Shown one piece after another: positions 43,709-50,410 of a stretch of DNA of 64,000 bases; the first letter of the stretch is position 1; each line of letters begins with the position of its first letter. A model generated the notes under the pieces. It was not told where the DNA came from. It saw nothing but the letters and a program-made list of their open reading frames with translations, and searched no databases. The translations under genes and the position numbers were made by a program. The DNA comes from a virus: IMG/VR virus record IMGVR_UViG_3300047369_000650, positions 113,536 to 177,535 of that record. One strand, given 5' to 3'.

Positions 43709-44266
43709 ATGAAATATTATAGATTAGAACCATCAGTTAAAAAATCTGTTATTGAATGGCATTCATTTAAGAGAAAAGATGCCGACGGTAATACAATTTT
43801 TCTCCGTAAAGAATTAGGCTGGAGATACGGAGCATGGTTAATTAGTGTACCAGAGACAGATGAAGAAATTAAAGAATATCTTTCTGATAAAGGAGATTAT
43901 GAATCATTTCAGGAATATCTTGTAGACTATTATGGCGAAGATGATATGATTACAGAAGAAACCAAATTAGAAGATTATCTGCTTCCTAAAATAGATGAAG
44001 ACTTTGTTGACATTAGTGAAGATTATGAAGATGCAGAAATGTTAGAAACCTGGGATGGATGTTGGGAAGACTGGTCACTTATTGGAACCGAACTTGATGA
44101 AATATCAGAAGAACAGCAAGAACAATGGATAGAAGATGCTACAGCAGCGTATGATGAAGATTATGAAGATGGAGTAGAAGGATTAGGTTGGGAATTTATA
44201 GACTGCTTCTATGAAATGCATTGTCATCCAGAAATTACACCATGTGATAAAAATGGCAATACTTAA
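43709..44266 (+). CDS. Very acidic hypothetical protein
   Basis: 185 residues with Asp and Glu in about one third of positions and repeated WED/DED motifs. Such proteins can mimic DNA and inhibit nucleases or restriction systems, but no family is recognised and this is speculative. Overlaps the methyltransferase-like gene by 14 bases. Confidence 0.6.
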   Translation: MKYYRLEPSVKKSVIEWHSFKRKDADGNTIFLRKELGWRYGAWLISVPETDEEIKEYLSDKGDYESFQEYLVDYYGEDDMITEETKLEDYLLPKIDEDFVDISEDYEDAEMLETWDGCWEDWSLIGTELDEISEEQQEQWIEDATAAYDEDYEDGVEGLGWEFIDCFYEMHCHPEITPCDKNGNT

Positions 44267-44759
44267 TGTTTTAAAGACTATAGGTCGTAATGAAGAAAGT
44301 GACGAATGTTATACTCCAATTAATCAAGTTAAACCTTTATTACAATATCTTGATAATAGTAAAACATATTATGAGCCAACATCTGGAATATCATCTAATA
44401 TAGTAAAAGCTTTTACCGAAAATGGATATGATATGAAGTCCAGTAACGGTAAAGACTTTTTTGAGTGTACTGCAGATGATGTATATGATGGTATAGTAAC
44501 TAACCCACCGTATAGTAAAAAAGATAAATTTATAAAACACTGCTATAATCTTAAAAAACCATTTGCTTTACTACTTCCCGTATCATCATTTCAAGGTGTA
44601 AGAAGGGGTAAACAGTTCATAGAGCACGGTATGTCCGCAATAGTTTATAATCACAGAGTTGATTTTACTGGTGGTGATAATCCGCATTTTGGCGTTGCAT
44701 GGTTTGTGCATGGTTTTTTACCACCCAATCAAATATTTTGGGTCGATAATAAATTTTAA
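44253..44759 (+). CDS. DNA N6-adenine methyltransferase-like protein
   Basis: 168 residues from ATG 44253. YYEPTSGISSNIVKAF resembles the SAM-binding motif I, and TNPPYSKKDKFIKH is a catalytic [D/N]PPY motif of amino-methyltransferases. FALLLPVSSF follows as expected. It is short for a full enzyme and lacks an obvious target-recognition domain, so it may be a solitary modifier of phage DNA. Confidence 0.7.
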   Translation: MAILNVLKTIGRNEESDECYTPINQVKPLLQYLDNSKTYYEPTSGISSNIVKAFTENGYDMKSSNGKDFFECTADDVYDGIVTNPPYSKKDKFIKHCYNLKKPFALLLPVSSFQGVRRGKQFIEHGMSAIVYNHRVDFTGGDNPHFGVAWFVHGFLPPNQIFWVDNKF

Positions 44760-44760
44760 A

Positions 44761-44840
44761 AAAATGCATTTTAGGGGTTTACATTCTATCTGAAATATAC
44801 TATATTAGTAGTATAAAGAGAATCGGATAGGAGATATATT
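44761..44840 (+). promoter_or_regulatory. Early promoter of the TTTTAGGGGTTTACA family with perfect palindrome
   Basis: AAAATGCATTTT (44761-44772), AGGGG, -35 TTTACA (44778-44783), 17 bp, -10 TATATT (44801-44806), leader AAAGAGAATCGGA. Confidence 0.85.
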
Positions 44841-45224
44841 ATGGGTACTGCATCAATGATCGGAATTTACAATGACGACGGTTCAGTTACTGCGACATAC
44901 TGCCACTATGATGGCTACCTTTCTTATAATGGCCAGCTTTTAGTTAAGTCATACAACACTCCTGAAGCTGCAAAAGCAGTTGCAAATGCTGGCTATATTT
45001 CAGGCTTAACATCTGACCTTGATCACGATTTAAGAGCAGCGGTTCATAACGACGAACCAAAAGTTTATAACTCAGTAAAAACTTTTCTGGAGTGTGGCGA
45101 TAAGCACGCAGGAGCTGATTATCTTTACTTGTTTGATGGAGAAGCGTGGTTTTATACCGACACATATACTCCTCGCAACAAGCGGAGCTTTGAAGAAGTT
45201 GAAATGAATTTGGAAACTGTATAA
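44841..45224 (+). CDS. Conserved phage hypothetical protein
   Basis: 127 residues beginning MGTASMIGIYNDDGSVTATYCHYDGYLSYNG, a form found in many T4-like phages. It is controlled by a shared-element early promoter. The stop overlaps the hydrolase start. Function unknown. Confidence 0.7.
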   Translation: MGTASMIGIYNDDGSVTATYCHYDGYLSYNGQLLVKSYNTPEAAKAVANAGYISGLTSDLDHDLRAAVHNDEPKVYNSVKTFLECGDKHAGADYLYLFDGEAWFYTDTYTPRNKRSFEEVEMNLETV

Positions 45225-45781
45225 TGAAACTTCGTAATTTTATATCAGGTGTTCTTAATGGTATTACTGCAACGGCTCTTATTGCCGTTGCGGCTACTCA
45301 ACTATATGCTACCGAAAATAGCTGGAGTCGTAAAGAAATTGTTAGAATTACGCATAATGATGTTTATTGTCTTCAACAAAATATTTTCTTTGAAGCAAGA
45401 AACCAAACCGTTGAGGGCCAAGTTGCAGTAGCTTGGGTTACACTTAATCGTCTTGATAATGATATCTACCCTGATACAATTTGTGGTGTTGTAAAGCAAG
45501 CTAAACGTGATTCTTCTGGTAAAGTTATTCGTAATATGTGCCATTTTAGCTGGTACTGTGATGGAAAGTCTGATCGTATACCTACTAATAAAATATCACA
45601 AGCAGCCTGGAAACAAGCTGGTATTGTTGCTCAAGTTGTATTAATGGATAGAATGGCTGGATATATATTTAAAGACCCTACATATGGTTCTATAATGTAT
45701 CACTCAATTAAAGTATCTCCTTATTGGAGAACTGCATATGATCTTGTAACTAAGGTTGATGACCATATTTTTTATAAATGA
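45224..45781 (+). CDS. SleB-type cell wall hydrolase (secreted)
   Basis: 185 residues. A hydrophobic N-terminal signal (ISGVLNGITATALIAVAATQLYA) precedes a Hydrolase_2/SleB domain: CLQQNIFFEARNQTVEGQVAVAWVTLNR, YPDTICGVVKQA, CHFSWYCDG and VSPYW. The Glu in FFEAR is the likely catalytic acid. SleB-type enzymes cleave peptidoglycan. The signal suggests Sec export, so it could act as a signal-arrest-release type endolysin. It is under an early-type promoter unless a late one is outside view. Confidence 0.82.
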   Translation: MKLRNFISGVLNGITATALIAVAATQLYATENSWSRKEIVRITHNDVYCLQQNIFFEARNQTVEGQVAVAWVTLNRLDNDIYPDTICGVVKQAKRDSSGKVIRNMCHFSWYCDGKSDRIPTNKISQAAWKQAGIVAQVVLMDRMAGYIFKDPTYGSIMYHSIKVSPYWRTAYDLVTKVDDHIFYK

Positions 45782-45788
45782 GGAAAGA

Positions 45789-46073
45789 ATGAAAAATAAA
45801 ATTGACTATCGTTTTGACGAAGAAAAATATATTACGGAATTTAAAGAGTATGTAGATGCTACCTATAATCAGCACTATTCTCAAAATAAATTCCAATCAA
45901 CTGAAGTAATTATGGATCGTGGTCATGGTACTGGTTTCTGTATGGGGAATGTAGATAAATATTCCAATAGATATGGTAAGAAAGGTACTGCAGCAGATGC
46001 TCGTAAGGACCTTATGAAAGTATTACACTATGCTCTATTACAACTATATGTGCATGACAATGAACTTGGATAA
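45789..46073 (+). CDS. DUF3310 (SaV-like) protein
   Basis: 94 residues from ATG 45789. GTGFCMGNVDKYSNRYGKKG...DARKDLMKVLHYAL fits DUF3310 (x-GF-x-x-GN-x-x-KY-x-x-R-x-GKK), a domain of phage nucleotide-metabolism proteins. Overlaps the next gene. Confidence 0.75.
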   Translation: MKNKIDYRFDEEKYITEFKEYVDATYNQHYSQNKFQSTEVIMDRGHGTGFCMGNVDKYSNRYGKKGTAADARKDLMKVLHYALLQLYVHDNELG

Positions 46074-46389
46074 TTACGCAGCTCAGATCTTTGATGATAA
46101 TAAAAACATGATGGTACCTTGGTATCTCATGGCATCATATGCTTACTATAAAGAAGATGATCCTATATTAAGTGATGCACTATTTGATGATATGGGTAAA
46201 AAACTCCTAGAAAACTGGGATAACATTACGCATTTGCATAAAGAATATATCACCAAAGATGAGCTAGTTGCTGGTAGCTTTTTAGGTAAATATCCTAGTA
46301 GAATACCCGACTCTTTAAGAGAATTAAGAAAAGTTGATCCTAATACTAAAATTGAAAAAAAAGAAGTGACATTGGAAGATTTTTTCTAA
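46060..46389 (+). CDS. Conserved phage protein resembling NAD-ligase subdomain Ia
   Basis: 109 residues from ATG 46060 (earlier in-frame starts overlap more of DUF3310). YAYYKEDDPILSDALFDDMGKKL resembles the N-terminal Ia domain of NAD-dependent DNA ligase (Y...D.PxISDAxYD), followed by KEYITKDELVAGSFLGKYPSR. The catalytic domain is absent, so it is not a ligase on its own. Similar stand-alone proteins occur in marine T4-like phages. Confidence 0.6.
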   Translation: MNLDNYAAQIFDDNKNMMVPWYLMASYAYYKEDDPILSDALFDDMGKKLLENWDNITHLHKEYITKDELVAGSFLGKYPSRIPDSLRELRKVDPNTKIEKKEVTLEDFF

Positions 46390-46390
46390 T

Positions 46391-46567
46391 ATGAAACAAG
46401 AAATTTTTAAACATAATAGTACAAATTTTCTTCGTAATAAAAGAAGAAATGAACTTATTAGAAAGAAACGGAAAGAAGAATATCAGAGAAAATCTGGAAC
46501 ATTCTTACTTAAAACTGAAGAAACATCTTTACAGTTTAATATTGATTCTGACCATATTAAACTGTAA
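46391..46567 (+). CDS. Small basic hypothetical protein
   Basis: 58 residues, with a strongly basic centre (RNKRRNELIRKKRKEEYQRK). One base after the previous stop. Function unknown; ends 74 bases before the tmRNA acceptor piece. Confidence 0.55.
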   Translation: MKQEIFKHNSTNFLRNKRRNELIRKKRKEEYQRKSGTFLLKTEETSLQFNIDSDHIKL

Positions 46568-46603
46568 CATATTTACTACATTGTATTAATGATTAATAAA
46601 TGG

Positions 46604-46632
46604 TTTACTTATTACTCATTATATGATACTAT
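46604..46632 (+). promoter_or_regulatory. Promoter for the tmRNA
   Basis: TTTACT (46604-46609), 17 bp, TACTAT (46627-46632), with a second possible -10 TATAAT at 46632-46637. It follows the window's early promoter pattern and ends just before the acceptor piece. Confidence 0.6.
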
Positions 46633-46640
46633 ATAATCTG

Positions 46641-47055
46641 TAAACGTTGAAGCGACGTAGACACATACTGGACTTGGGGGCAGTACCCAACGCTTCCACC
46701 ATAAGCGCATTGAGGAATTTATGAAGTATAAAATGGTTGTTAAAACGGGTGATAAAATCTTTGTTAAGGCAAGAAGTAAAAATAAAGAACACTTGGAAAA
46801 TAGAGCAATTGCTTTAACTAAAAAGAAACCATATATGACTGTATATGTAGTATCAGAAGATACAAGAATATAGTGTGCTTATGCTGGGAGCGAACTAGGA
46901 TCGACAGGTGTGAAAGTGAAGTGGAGTTTATCGTGGTGACCTACGTTATTCGGTCAAAAACTACAAATGCAAACGATAATTTTGCACCATCTGGTTACGC
47001 ACTAGCTGCCTAACACAGGGGGTTGGCCACTTACCTAGCAACAGAAAATGTGGCA
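46641..47055 (+). ncRNA. ssrA: Permuted two-piece tmRNA (alphaproteobacterial type)
   Basis: The CCA-bearing acceptor piece comes first (about 46641-46701) and the coding piece second (about 46886-47055). T arm: TTGGG (46674-46678), 7-base loop, CCCAA (46686-46690). Acceptor strand CGCTTCC (46691-46697) followed by ACCA pairs with GGGAGCG (46886-46892) as a 7-bp stem with one G-U. Helix 2: CACATACTG (46662-46670) pairs with CAGGTGTG (46905-46912) with one bulged A. GGATCGACAGG is the conserved D-like segment. The reading frame GCA 46969 to TAA 47011-47013 encodes the tag ANDNFAPSGYALAA. tmRNA rescues stalled ribosomes and tags products for proteolysis. The outer limits of both pieces are estimates. 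Confidence 0.93.
46721..46873 (+). CDS. Small protein gene inside the tmRNA intervening segment
   Basis: 50 residues from ATG 46721, with GAGG seven bases upstream, ending TAG 46871-46873. MKYKMVVKTGDKIFVKARS...YMTVYVVSEDTRI is basic and probably a strand-helix-strand fold. It lies entirely between the acceptor piece (ends 46701) and the coding piece (starts 46886), in RNA that would be removed during tmRNA maturation. Confidence 0.6.
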   Translation: MKYKMVVKTGDKIFVKARSKNKEHLENRAIALTKKKPYMTVYVVSEDTRI

Positions 47056-47090
47056 TATAAATTAATACTAAAAATAGGGAAATAAAAAAA

Positions 47091-47870
47091 ATGAAGAATT
47101 TTCTTCTTACTTCTTGTGCAGTGTTTGCTTTAGCAGGTAGTGCATATGCTGCGGATGTTTCTGGTTCTGTAAAACTAGAAGCAACGCAAAACGCATCTGA
47201 CGATTGGGTCGGAAAAAATACAGTAGCATTAAGTTTCGGCGCCAATGAGCCTGATGTTGGTGCATTTGGATCAGTCGGTCTTGAAATGGTAGATGGTGGA
47301 ACAGTTGCGCTTGATGCATGGTCTCTAGGTACTGCAGTAAACGGTATTTCAGTTTCTCTTGGTGATCAAGGAGATTTGTTTCCAGGTGCCGGTCTTGAAG
47401 TTGTAGGTGATGATACACTTGCAGATCCAGCATCATCTGAAAGTATTATCGTGTCAATCGGTAACGCTTCTTTCATGGCAGCAGTAACAGATTATAAAAC
47501 AGACTTAACAGAGCTAGAGAATGTTCAGCTTGGATATTCTGCTGAAGTAAGTGCTATTGATGTTGGTGTAGCAATTGATTATAATATGGATACTGAAGAA
47601 ATGGCTTATGGTGCCGATGTAGGCGCTGAAATTCAAGGTGCTGGAATTGGTGCAGTAGTAACTTATGCAGCCGAAGAGTTTGCTTATGAGGCATCTGCTT
47701 CTTACTCTGGGGTTACTGCATTTGTTAATGGCGATGACGAAGAAATGGCTCAAAATGTAGGCGGACAAGTTGCTGCTGAATTTGGCGGTCTAAATCTTTT
47801 TGCTGAAACATCATATAATCTTGATAATGAAGAATGGACTCCAGCCGTAGGTGCTAGCTTTAACTTCTAA
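47091..47870 (+). CDS. Outer-membrane porin-like beta barrel
   Basis: 259 residues. Signal peptide 1-20 (ends AYAA), then alternating amphipathic strands rich in Gly, Ala, Asp and Glu, and a final Phe (VGASFNF), the outer membrane insertion signal. Resembles small alphaproteobacterial porins. As a phage gene it could alter outer-membrane permeability, receptor display or superinfection exclusion. TATAAATT at 47055 may be a weak late promoter. A strong terminator follows. Confidence 0.75.
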   Translation: MKNFLLTSCAVFALAGSAYAADVSGSVKLEATQNASDDWVGKNTVALSFGANEPDVGAFGSVGLEMVDGGTVALDAWSLGTAVNGISVSLGDQGDLFPGAGLEVVGDDTLADPASSESIIVSIGNASFMAAVTDYKTDLTELENVQLGYSAEVSAIDVGVAIDYNMDTEEMAYGADVGAEIQGAGIGAVVTYAAEEFAYEASASYSGVTAFVNGDDEEMAQNVGGQVAAEFGGLNLFAETSYNLDNEEWTPAVGASFNF

Positions 47871-47922
47871 GCTAAATACTATTGTCTATGACAACAAAAG
47901 GTTCACTGCTTAATAGGTGCGT

Positions 47923-47948
47923 GGGGGGTCATGGTTAGCCCCCCTTTT
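47923..47948 (+). terminator. Factor-independent terminator after the porin
   Basis: GGGGGG (47923-47928) pairs with CCCCCC (47939-47944) around TCATGGTTAG, followed by TTTT. Confidence 0.75.
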
Positions 47949-47968
47949 CTATTAAGAAAGGATATACT

Positions 47969-48322
47969 ATGAAAAATTTAATTGTAAGCATTTTATTATG
48001 CTTTGCAACACCACTTTTTTCTCAAGAAAGCAGTGCTAAAATTTTAACAATGGGTGTACCTTGCGATAAAACACAAAATGTGTTTAATATATTGGAAGAA
48101 GCAAAAGAAGGATTACTTTTTTCTGGTGGCGGTCTAATAGCCGAAGCAACCACAAGGCAAGTTTATCCAACAGCAACTATGGTTTTTGTAAATCAAGAAA
48201 CCGGAAATTGGTCTGTTATAGCATCCTTTGGTGATGGTACTAGTTGTCTAATTATGCCTGGAAAAAACTTTACACCATATAGTGGTAAACAGCCTTGGGA
48301 TGAAGAGAAAGATGGATTGTAA
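47969..48322 (+). CDS. Secreted protein of unknown function
   Basis: 117 residues. Signal peptide 1-19 (LIVSILLCFATPLFSQ), then a small domain with two Cys (VPCDKT; TSCLIMPGKNF). Conserved in style with secreted proteins of other marine T4-like phages. It begins a run of exported proteins and its stop overlaps the next start. Confidence 0.65.
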   Translation: MKNLIVSILLCFATPLFSQESSAKILTMGVPCDKTQNVFNILEEAKEGLLFSGGGLIAEATTRQVYPTATMVFVNQETGNWSVIASFGDGTSCLIMPGKNFTPYSGKQPWDEEKDGL

Positions 48323-48501
48323 TGTGGACATTAGTTTTTATATATTTGTATAATACAGAACCTTTTGTTGTAAAGTATGATACTTATGAATCTATGTATG
48401 ATTGTTTTGGTCAACGTGAAGTTCTTGCTTTTGAAGTAGGCGGAAAAGATGGGTATTTCCCATCTGGTCAACAAGCTTTATGTATTTACACAGATAAATA
48501 G
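48322..48501 (+). CDS. Small hypothetical protein
   Basis: 59 residues from ATG 48322 (TAATG). MWTLVFIYLYNTEPFVVKYDTY, later CFGQREVL and LCIYTDK; two Cys could form a disulfide. Coupled to the preceding secreted protein. Confidence 0.55.
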   Translation: MWTLVFIYLYNTEPFVVKYDTYESMYDCFGQREVLAFEVGGKDGYFPSGQQALCIYTDK

Positions 48502-48532
48502 AAAAGTATTTAATGATTTGGAGTGTAACATT

Positions 48533-49075
48533 GTGAAACATTATGTAATATTATTTATTTTATTAATAATGGGATCTACTGCTTTTGCAGAACCTATTGT
48601 AACGGAATCTACAAGTAACAGTACAGTTGACTCAAATATAGATTCTACGACAACCGTATATTCTCCACCACCAACTGCAGTATCACCATCTATTAGCGCA
48701 ACTAATTCTGATTTATGTACTGTAGGTGTTGCTGGTGCCGTACAAACGCAGATACTTGGTATTTCAGCTGGTAGTACAGTAAGAGATATGAATTGTGAAA
48801 AATTAAAGAATGCAAAAACTTTATATGATATGGGAATGAAAGTTGCTGCAGTATCTGTAATGTGCCAAGATAAACGTGTCTTTGATGCTATGATGCAAGC
48901 CGGCACACCATGTCCATTTGATGGAATGATAGGTGAATCAGCAAAGGCTGCTTGGCAAGAAAATAAAGATATGCAGCCAGGAAGTAATTTTAAGAAAGAA
49001 ATGGATGATGCAGATAAGAAGACTCTTTGGGGCATTGGTGGTTTGGGTGGTCTCCTGCTCCTCCTCTTACTCTAA
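48533..49075 (+). CDS. Secreted protein with C-terminal hydrophobic anchor
   Basis: 180 residues from GTG 48533 (GGAG nine bases upstream), giving signal peptide HYVILFILLIMGSTAFAE. The central domain has conserved Cys residues (LCTVGVAGAVQTQ; MNCEKL; VMCQDKRVFD; TPCPFDG). The extreme C-terminus (GIGGLGGLLLLLLL) is a membrane anchor. In-frame sequence upstream of GTG 48533 is out of translation context. Overlaps the next gene by 71 bases. Confidence 0.65.
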   Translation: MKHYVILFILLIMGSTAFAEPIVTESTSNSTVDSNIDSTTTVYSPPPTAVSPSISATNSDLCTVGVAGAVQTQILGISAGSTVRDMNCEKLKNAKTLYDMGMKVAAVSVMCQDKRVFDAMMQAGTPCPFDGMIGESAKAAWQENKDMQPGSNFKKEMDDADKKTLWGIGGLGGLLLLLLL

Positions 49076-49874
49076 TGGTATAGTATCCGGTACTACAAAT
49101 AATGCTGCAGCCAGTGGTTTAAATTGGAGTATGAGTGGCATATTGCCAAGTGAAACGGGTCTTATTGTAAACGGAATGATCTATAGATATACCGCAGAAA
49201 AAATAACAGAAGATGATATGAAAGTGCATATTCGTAATGAAGATACTTTATCTGATGGATATATTTTTTCTAATACCGATAATTGGAGTGGCGGCCCGGG
49301 AGGAACAATAAATAAAGTTGTACCTATAGATAGAATTTCTGGAACACGATTTGGTGATGGAGAAATATCAATTGAGGGTAGTGGTAATATAAAAGACCCT
49401 ACTGTGGTATATAGTTATCAATTTGATCCATGTGCTGTAGTCTTAAGTGATCCAAGTTGCCCTGGGTATGCAGAAGCTTTAGCCGCATTATTAGCAGAGC
49501 AGGCGCTTTTAAATCCTATTGAAACGGAAATAGAAAATCCCTATGATAATAAAGAAGTTCAAAATATATTAGACAGTGAAGTAGAAATTAAAGAAGAATT
49601 TAAAACAACCGAAAATGCCGAAAGTGAAGAAGAAAACAGTTTAGACACTAATAGTGAAATGCTTGATAAATATGCCGGACAGTTAGATTTGATGGAAGCA
49701 TATAGTGTACAAGAGCAGGGTTTAAATCAATATTACATTGTGAATATACCAGGTGGAATATATGAAGAAACGATAAAATTAGAACCTAACCAATTAGCTG
49801 ATAATAATCGTGCACTAAGAAATTTTTCATCGGATACACTACATCGTAGAATAGTTAGATCACAATATGAATAA
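49005..49874 (+). CDS. Probable lipoprotein in the secreted-protein cluster
   Basis: About 289 residues. If translation starts at ATG 49005 or 49008 the product opens MQIRRLFGALVVWVVSCSSS, a lipoprotein signal with lipobox VVSC. The mature part is Asn/Gly-rich, then acidic (EEFKTTENAESEEEN) and ends near NQYYIVNIPGGIY. The first 71 bases overlap the previous gene in another frame. The start is uncertain. Confidence 0.55.
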   Translation: MMQIRRLFGALVVWVVSCSSSYSNGIVSGTTNNAAASGLNWSMSGILPSETGLIVNGMIYRYTAEKITEDDMKVHIRNEDTLSDGYIFSNTDNWSGGPGGTINKVVPIDRISGTRFGDGEISIEGSGNIKDPTVVYSYQFDPCAVVLSDPSCPGYAEALAALLAEQALLNPIETEIENPYDNKEVQNILDSEVEIKEEFKTTENAESEEENSLDTNSEMLDKYAGQLDLMEAYSVQEQGLNQYYIVNIPGGIYEETIKLEPNQLADNNRALRNFSSDTLHRRIVRSQYE

Positions 49875-49909
49875 ATAGTAATAGAAAATAATAAATAGGA
49901 ACAAAAAAA

Positions 49910-50410
49910 ATGTTCAGAATAATTTTAACTTTAAGTGCTGTTTTAGGTATGACAAGTATAGTCTTTGCTGAGAATGTCCCGATTACGGGTACTGTAGAAT
50001 CCAAGTGTTCGGTATCAACTGAAGTTGATGGTGTGTATGGTACACCCCAGCCATATAAACTAAGTACAGCAACTTCTGATGGCGGTGTTCTACCTAAGAT
50101 CAGATTTGATACTTCACAAGCCGGTTATTATCTAGCAAGAATTACCGTGCCATCAAGCTTTTCTTCAAGTCCGAGTTTAAGTGATACTGTTGAATGGACT
50201 GGCTCAACTTCAGTAGAGTCTATGAGCGATACTGGTATGTCTGGCTATGAAGCAGCAAAAGTAACTTATGGCAATACAACTGACTATGATTTAACGGTAG
50301 CTGGTTCTGTTTGGATTAATGTATCCTCAACTGCAACATACGGTGTTGACACATCTATGCCACAAGGCGAATATACTGCAATCGTAGTTGCAGAGTGCAT
50401 AGCTCAATAA
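49910..50410 (+). CDS. Secreted pilin-like (spore coat U / fimbrial Ig) protein
   Basis: 166 residues. Signal peptide 1-20, then VPITGTVESKCSV at the start and YTAIVVAECIAQ at the end, so that two Cys flank a beta-rich Ig-like domain, the arrangement of chaperone-usher pilins and SCPU proteins. No usher is present. The next gene looks like a partner chaperone. Similarity is structural rather than strong. Confidence 0.5.
   Translation: MFRIILTLSAVLGMTSIVFAENVPITGTVESKCSVSTEVDGVYGTPQPYKLSTATSDGGVLPKIRFDTSQAGYYLARITVPSSFSSSPSLSDTVEWTGSTSVESMSDTGMSGYEAAKVTYGNTTDYDLTVAGSVWINVSSTATYGVDTSMPQGEYTAIVVAECIAQ

Follow-up and report, generated by a model that had tools for sequence, protein, structure and literature searches.

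The question raised by this locus is what lies between the two halves of a permuted tmRNA gene carried by a phage, that is, whether the intervening sequence (IVS) is a spacer to be discarded or holds a gene of its own. The stretch of DNA analysed, hereafter the window, comprises 64,000 nucleotides (bases 113536-177535 of a 177.5-kb IMG/VR record), and encodes T4-like DNA polymerase, clamp loader, UvsX, helicases, SbcCD-like nuclease and long tail fibre; the virus is a T4-like phage of aquatic bacteria. An earlier sequence-only reading had proposed a phage-encoded, permuted two-piece tmRNA at this site, and the proposal has been borne out by two covariance models, by ARAGORN and by the phage genes in the neighbourhood. 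In cmscan searches, RF04321 (tmRNA_permuted) matched 46640-47013 (+) with 110.6 bits (gathering score 47, E 1e-20), and RF01849 (alpha_tmRNA), the model with which that reading had proposed to search, matched 46605-47055 with 98.6 bits (gathering score 50, E 1e-25), so that both models score far above the gathering threshold at 46640-47055 (+). Independently, ARAGORN reported a permuted tmRNA with the tag ANDNFAPSGYALAA. It is the single tmRNA in the whole 177.5-kb record, and its parts are the following:

46641 to 46701, plus strand: tmRNA acceptor piece, located with RF04321, RF01849, ARAGORN and a script; 46641 is not a mapped mature 5' end.
46702 to 46885, plus strand: IVS of 184 nt, between the encoded CCA and the 5' end of the coding piece.
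46886 to 47055, plus strand: tmRNA coding piece, located with RF04321, RF01849 and ARAGORN; 47055 is a covariance-model boundary.
46969 to 47013, plus strand: tag frame ANDNFAPSGYALAA (46969-47010) and its stop codon (47011-47013), given by ARAGORN and spanned by the RF04321 alignment.

The acceptor piece contains the 3' strands of the tRNA-like domain, the T arm, CGCUUCC, a discriminator A and the encoded CCA (46699-46701); the coding piece contains the GGGAGCG 5' strand of the acceptor stem, a D-like region with UCGAC, the resume site, the tag and a downstream pseudoknot region. The upstream position of the acceptor piece, the 7-bp acceptor stem, the T arm, the in-frame tag and the piece ends at 46701 (encoded CCA) and 46886 (GGGAGCG start) have all been recovered as first drawn. 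All seven pairs of the stem GGGAGCG/CGCUUCC form, the third being the G3.U70 pair of alanine identity, and compensatory changes are found in relatives (GGGGCUG/CAGCUCC and GGGGGUG/CACCUCC). The tag, in frame and with its resume site present, is hydrophobic and ends in ALAA, an LAA-type degron. Judged by these sequence features, the locus is a canonical, complete phage-borne two-piece (permuted) tmRNA gene, and the IVS at 46702-46885 would be expected to be removed during maturation. No SmpB gene is encoded in the phage record, and therefore the tmRNA would rely on the SmpB of the host.

Phage-borne two-piece tmRNAs have been reported previously. For example, the cultured OM43 phage Melnitz (EXVC044M) has a published two-piece tmRNA of the alphaproteobacterial type and infects a gammaproteobacterium (PMC9004378). 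In the same work, 53 two-piece structures were counted among the tmRNAs of 402 tmRNA-bearing phages, 50 of the 53 being marine or aquatic (PMC9004378). Phage-borne permuted tmRNA is thus a known kind of gene, and its type is an unsafe guide to the host, for which the sequence-only reading had taken it. Among annotated sequences, the Melnitz SsrA is the nearest, with 76% identity over the tmRNA pieces. A glutamine riboswitch has been reported next to the Melnitz tmRNA; none was found at 44000-50000 of the window, even with permissive filters. The gene is also like the Caulobacter-type permuted tmRNA of alphaproteobacteria (RF01849/RF04321) in gene order, acceptor stem, T arm, resume site and ALAA tag end, although in bacteria the IVS is short (median 30 nt) and has no conserved ORF.

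More is contained in 46702-46885 than the mere spacer, to be processed away, that it had first been taken for; a conserved protein gene inside it had been overlooked. The features of the IVS are these:

46702 to 46711, plus strand: 5' strand of the IVS closing stem, UAAGCGCAUU, pairing with 46872-46881, from covariation and folding.
46712 to 46715, plus strand: Shine-Dalgarno GAGG of the nested ORF, read from the sequence, immediately 3' of the 5' strand of the closing stem.
46721 to 46873, plus strand: nested gene of 50 aa, MKYKMVVKTGDKIFVKARSKNKEHLENRAIALTKKKPYMTVYVVSEDTRI, with its stop codon (family A), conserved in viral IVSs and characterised by dN/dS.
46872 to 46881, plus strand: 3' strand of the IVS closing stem, from covariation and folding.

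The family A ORF starts 5 nt past GAGG and ends 12 nt ahead of the coding piece, and so nearly fills the IVS. Protein searches of IMG/VR viral contigs have yielded 26 loci encoding family A relatives; at about 20 loci, with relatives 56-100% identical, a permuted tmRNA can be recognised and the ORF sits in its IVS. According to Rfam, the tmRNAs that harbour it are of the alpha type (L123-L127, L132) or of the beta type (L155, L161, L162, L164, L166-L168), and their IVSs are exactly 175, 184 or 185 nt long. Not a single indel is found across the 50 codons at protein identities down to 56%, and dN/dS is mostly 0.03-0.29 (pairwise Nei-Gojobori, pairs with unsaturated synonymous sites); two leaders (L151 and L164) have no obvious Shine-Dalgarno. 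On these comparisons, the ORF is evolving under selection as a protein. Family A has been seen solely in viral contigs, with no relatives among 84,980 bacterial and archaeal species genomes and none in annotated phage records. The AlphaFold2 model of the protein is confident (pLDDT 93), with a beta-beta-alpha-beta topology; no convincing match to a Pfam or PHROG family was obtained, and no significant match to solved or viral structures was found by Foldseek with this model. Against small phage antitoxins, Foldseek gave ATfaRel2 (TM 0.68 at E 1.8) and T4 Dmd (TM 0.63 at E 5), neither of them significant.

The ends of the IVS are conserved in another manner. The closing stem of this gene has 10 bp and a pair probability of 0.96 in the folded precursor, and the stop codon of the ORF (46871-46873) overlaps its 3' strand. 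Among 109 distinct viral IVSs, 92% of the closing-stem positions are paired, compared with 68 +/- 1% when partners are shuffled, and A-U, U-A, G-C and C-G alternatives occur at most positions. In a 25-gene test set, the first ~10 nt pair with nucleotides ending 4 nt before the coding piece in every ORF-bearing IVS, and when the precursors of 13 genes are folded, the closing and acceptor stems reach probabilities of 0.83-1.00 although the loop contains the ORF. This covariation argues that the closing stem is under selection as RNA. The ORFs are fitted closely to it: in most cases the Shine-Dalgarno is directly 3' of its 5' strand, and the stop codon either touches its 3' strand or is supplied, as UGA, by the conserved UGAU with which most IVSs end.

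The nesting of a protein gene is not restricted to family A. For a wider survey, viral tmRNAs were gathered by tag sequence alone, blind to the content of the IVS, and the pieces were located by a script demanding a 7-bp acceptor stem, a T arm and CCA. Among 126 distinct viral IVSs, 36 were at least 100 nt long; a small ORF fills the IVS or runs on into the coding piece in 23 of these, and a convincing ORF is absent from the other 13. The longest contained ORF reached a shuffle p < 0.05 in 20 of 39 IVS clusters (family A included) vs about 2 expected; about eight of the 20 are family A and the remaining dozen are independent of it. At least five more unrelated small-protein families use the IVS slot in other phages, with ORFs of 29-78 codons. 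Family B is a DUF6356 protein (Pfam 4e-11) with dN/dS of 0.07-0.11; family C shows 33 synonymous differences vs nine nonsynonymous; families D and F have dN/dS of 0.13-0.34 and 0.04-0.14, respectively; and family J is a 29-residue basic peptide with dN/dS of 0.11-0.37. These values are clear signs of purifying selection on families B, C, D, F and J. Families C, D and F are hydrophobic and, from their sequences, probably membrane proteins. In families G (that of Melnitz), H and I the ORF extends beyond the end of the IVS into the coding piece, and H and I have more synonymous than nonsynonymous divergence, on few codons. Such overrunning of the cleavage site is found in Melnitz, L006, L063, L104/L098 and L315/L020/L107. 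Taken together, the excised IVS is read here as a recurrent slot in which phages would nest small protein genes.

Two of these cases deserve a description. In Melnitz (L002, MZ577097.1), the 142-nt IVS falls inside the SsrA annotation, and its ORF, which is unannotated and has a Shine-Dalgarno, continues in frame into the coding piece; relatives have a common motif, IPKYLSG in L411 and VPKYLGG in L073. Melnitz is thus comparable with the present phage as a T4-like marine phage with an alpha-type permuted tmRNA and an IVS ORF with Shine-Dalgarno (MFKWLSKTRLVVITRDYFRERNRKADAKIPKYLSG...), but its ORF is unrelated and runs into the coding piece, whereas the family A ORF stops within the IVS. The other is L411, where two protein genes lie within one 499-nt IVS, whose usual closing stem is not evident; the second ORF (120 aa, with a hydrophobic centre) has a 53% identical free-standing relative in Melnitz, outside any tmRNA.

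Bacterial tmRNAs have been used as controls, in sets chosen irrespective of the host of the phage and which may not contain it. With the same tag pattern, 54 distinct bacterial IVSs were obtained (median 30 nt), and the only ORF-filled one is of family F, on a phage contig. This contig, PBDU01000009.1 (L252/L545, titled Euryarchaeota archaeon SP339), carries a permuted tmRNA with the family F ORF in its IVS and also encodes a phage helicase loader, a single-strand binding protein, an endolysin and a baseplate hub. Because such a contig, with phage genes, has been placed in an archaeal MAG, some "archaeal tmRNAs" are likely misbinned phage contigs. The second control consisted of 115 genomes drawn evenly from a single class (that containing a SAR116 alphaproteobacterium); 105 of them had a match over the cut-off and only two had spans of more than 300 nt. 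The long bacterial IVSs G086 and G123, examined for nested genes, contained repeats or no conserved filling ORF.

Nesting is not indispensable to family A, which is also found without a surrounding tmRNA (L128, L131 and L152/L156). In L152/L156 an ordinary gene encodes it, and the phage contig also has SbcC-like and dCMP deaminase genes. In L128, whose contig bears anti-restriction genes as well as primase/helicase and exonuclease genes unlike those of the window, the ORF lies near the primase/helicase and an anti-restriction gene; the sequence before it, CACCATAAACACATTGAGG, is the same as the end of the acceptor piece with the leader in L130. In L131 the ORF is preceded by a CACCA remnant. 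By these occurrences, family A is a gene that moves from phage to phage and that has left tmRNA genes with its leader attached. Alternatively, the insert could be a mobile element that integrates at the acceptor piece's 3' end, as many islands do at tRNA and tmRNA genes, and would then not be a nested gene retained in order to be expressed; in favour of this, tmRNA genes are known integration sites (PMC11915505) and the remnants described are present in L128 and L131. This is nevertheless very unlikely, since no integrase, direct repeat or duplicated acceptor end was seen, the insert is exactly a leader and one small ORF between the strands of the closing stem, unrelated ORFs are laid out alike, and homologous recombination between tmRNA ends is a simpler account of the exchange. 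Two further observations concern these contigs. At L131 5265-6415, the degenerate acceptor-like remnant and family A ORF are followed by an aldolase-like gene (by reading) and then by a complete beta-type tmRNA, an arrangement suggestive of a decayed tmRNA next to another that is intact. At L128 10123-10189 (-) there is a match to the type II hammerhead ribozyme (38.2 vs a gathering score of 37 bits).

Still less likely is that the tmRNA part has decayed or become a decoy, the locus being kept for the small protein. A tag-less tmRNA-like RNA that inhibits host tmRNA is known from phage DS6A (PMC11915505), but here the acceptor stem, T arm, G3.U70 pair, resume region and ALAA-ending tag are all intact, and the acceptor-stem pairs covary in relatives. 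Least likely of all is that the two-piece tmRNA is an ordinary one whose long spacer is non-coding, the ORF being a chance frame conserved by recent common ancestry: A+T-rich DNA often has short ORFs, the longest-ORF shuffle p of this IVS alone is only 0.005 and 13 of the 36 long viral IVSs have no convincing ORF, but this account is already largely refuted by dN/dS, with 50 codons free of indels down to 56% protein identity and a large synonymous excess, and family A moreover stands free in other phages (L152, L128) and unrelated Shine-Dalgarno-bearing ORFs in the same slot are likewise under purifying selection.

The locus is therefore best regarded, with high but not full confidence, as a two-piece phage tmRNA whose IVS would double as the messenger for a 50-aa phage protein. 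A single phage transcript would yield both products. As the transcript emerges, a ribosome would load at the Shine-Dalgarno of the IVS and the small protein would be made; once ribosomes are gone, the ends of the IVS would zip together through the closing and acceptor stems, and host tRNA-processing enzymes would cut 3' of the CCA and 5' of the coding piece. The two mature pieces, charged with alanine and together with host SmpB, would then rescue stalled ribosomes and add the ANDNFAPSGYALAA degradation tag. The ribosome-binding site and the stop codon adjoin or overlap the closing stem, so that translation of the ORF and folding of the precursor would be mutually exclusive in time. The slot may tolerate inserts because it is excised anyway, and so phages would put small cargo genes there. 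With regard to the cargo of the present phage, the restriction of family A to phages and its neighbours in L128 suggest a small host-takeover or anti-defence factor as the most likely function, a guess that could equally well prove wrong.

It is conceivable, though doubtful, that the arrangement is also a regulatory device, in which translation of the IVS would exclude maturation of the tmRNA, so that tmRNA output would sense free ribosomes, and in which overrunning ORFs would limit themselves. Where an ORF overruns the cleavage site, the cut precursor would be a stop-less messenger, whose product would be tagged for degradation via the same tmRNA. A comparable self-limiting loop is that of ArfA, which is made from a stop-less mRNA and repressed by trans-translation (PMC10107115).

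Other genes inside tmRNA genes have been described. For example, there are tmRNA genes with group I introns carrying homing-endonuclease genes (PMC11915505), which are similar in that a protein gene lies within RNA cut from a tmRNA precursor; here, by contrast, the IVS lies between permuted pieces and the proteins are tiny and, by family search, not endonucleases. A homing-endonuclease gene in a group I intron was considered for this locus and rejected, as the Rfam scan gave no intron family and no endonuclease family was matched. Another example is the permuted tmRNA of GCA-2688965, with a tRNA-Ala gene in its IVS and described as unique (PMC11915505); it shares with the present cases a gene in the IVS, but it is one tRNA gene against many recurring protein families. 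Single IVS cases, one with a tRNA gene and one with a repetitive element, are mentioned as notable in the tmRNA database paper of 2025 (PMC11915505). The open-access literature yielded no earlier account of a permuted tmRNA with protein genes in its IVS, older subscription papers being outside the search. What is new is therefore the nesting of protein genes in this IVS, phage-borne two-piece tmRNA being already known. The spacer of permuted tmRNAs, hitherto treated as waste, would be a recurrent home of small phage protein genes, hidden by annotation under the "SsrA" feature even in a cultured phage such as Melnitz. This is of significance because one gene would give both a ribosome-rescue RNA and a protein, because a competition of translation with maturation of the tmRNA would be built in, and because the slot is a place where small host-takeover proteins could be mined.

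Finally, two genes border the tmRNA in the window. Just upstream (46030-46389, +) is a 119-aa ORF that matches only the N-terminal domain of NAD-dependent DNA ligase, the catalytic domain not being found. Directly downstream (47091-47870, +) is a gene for a 259-aa protein with no Pfam or PHROG match; it has a signal-peptide-like start, MKNFLLTSCAVFALAGSAYAAD, and is perhaps secreted or located in the outer membrane.
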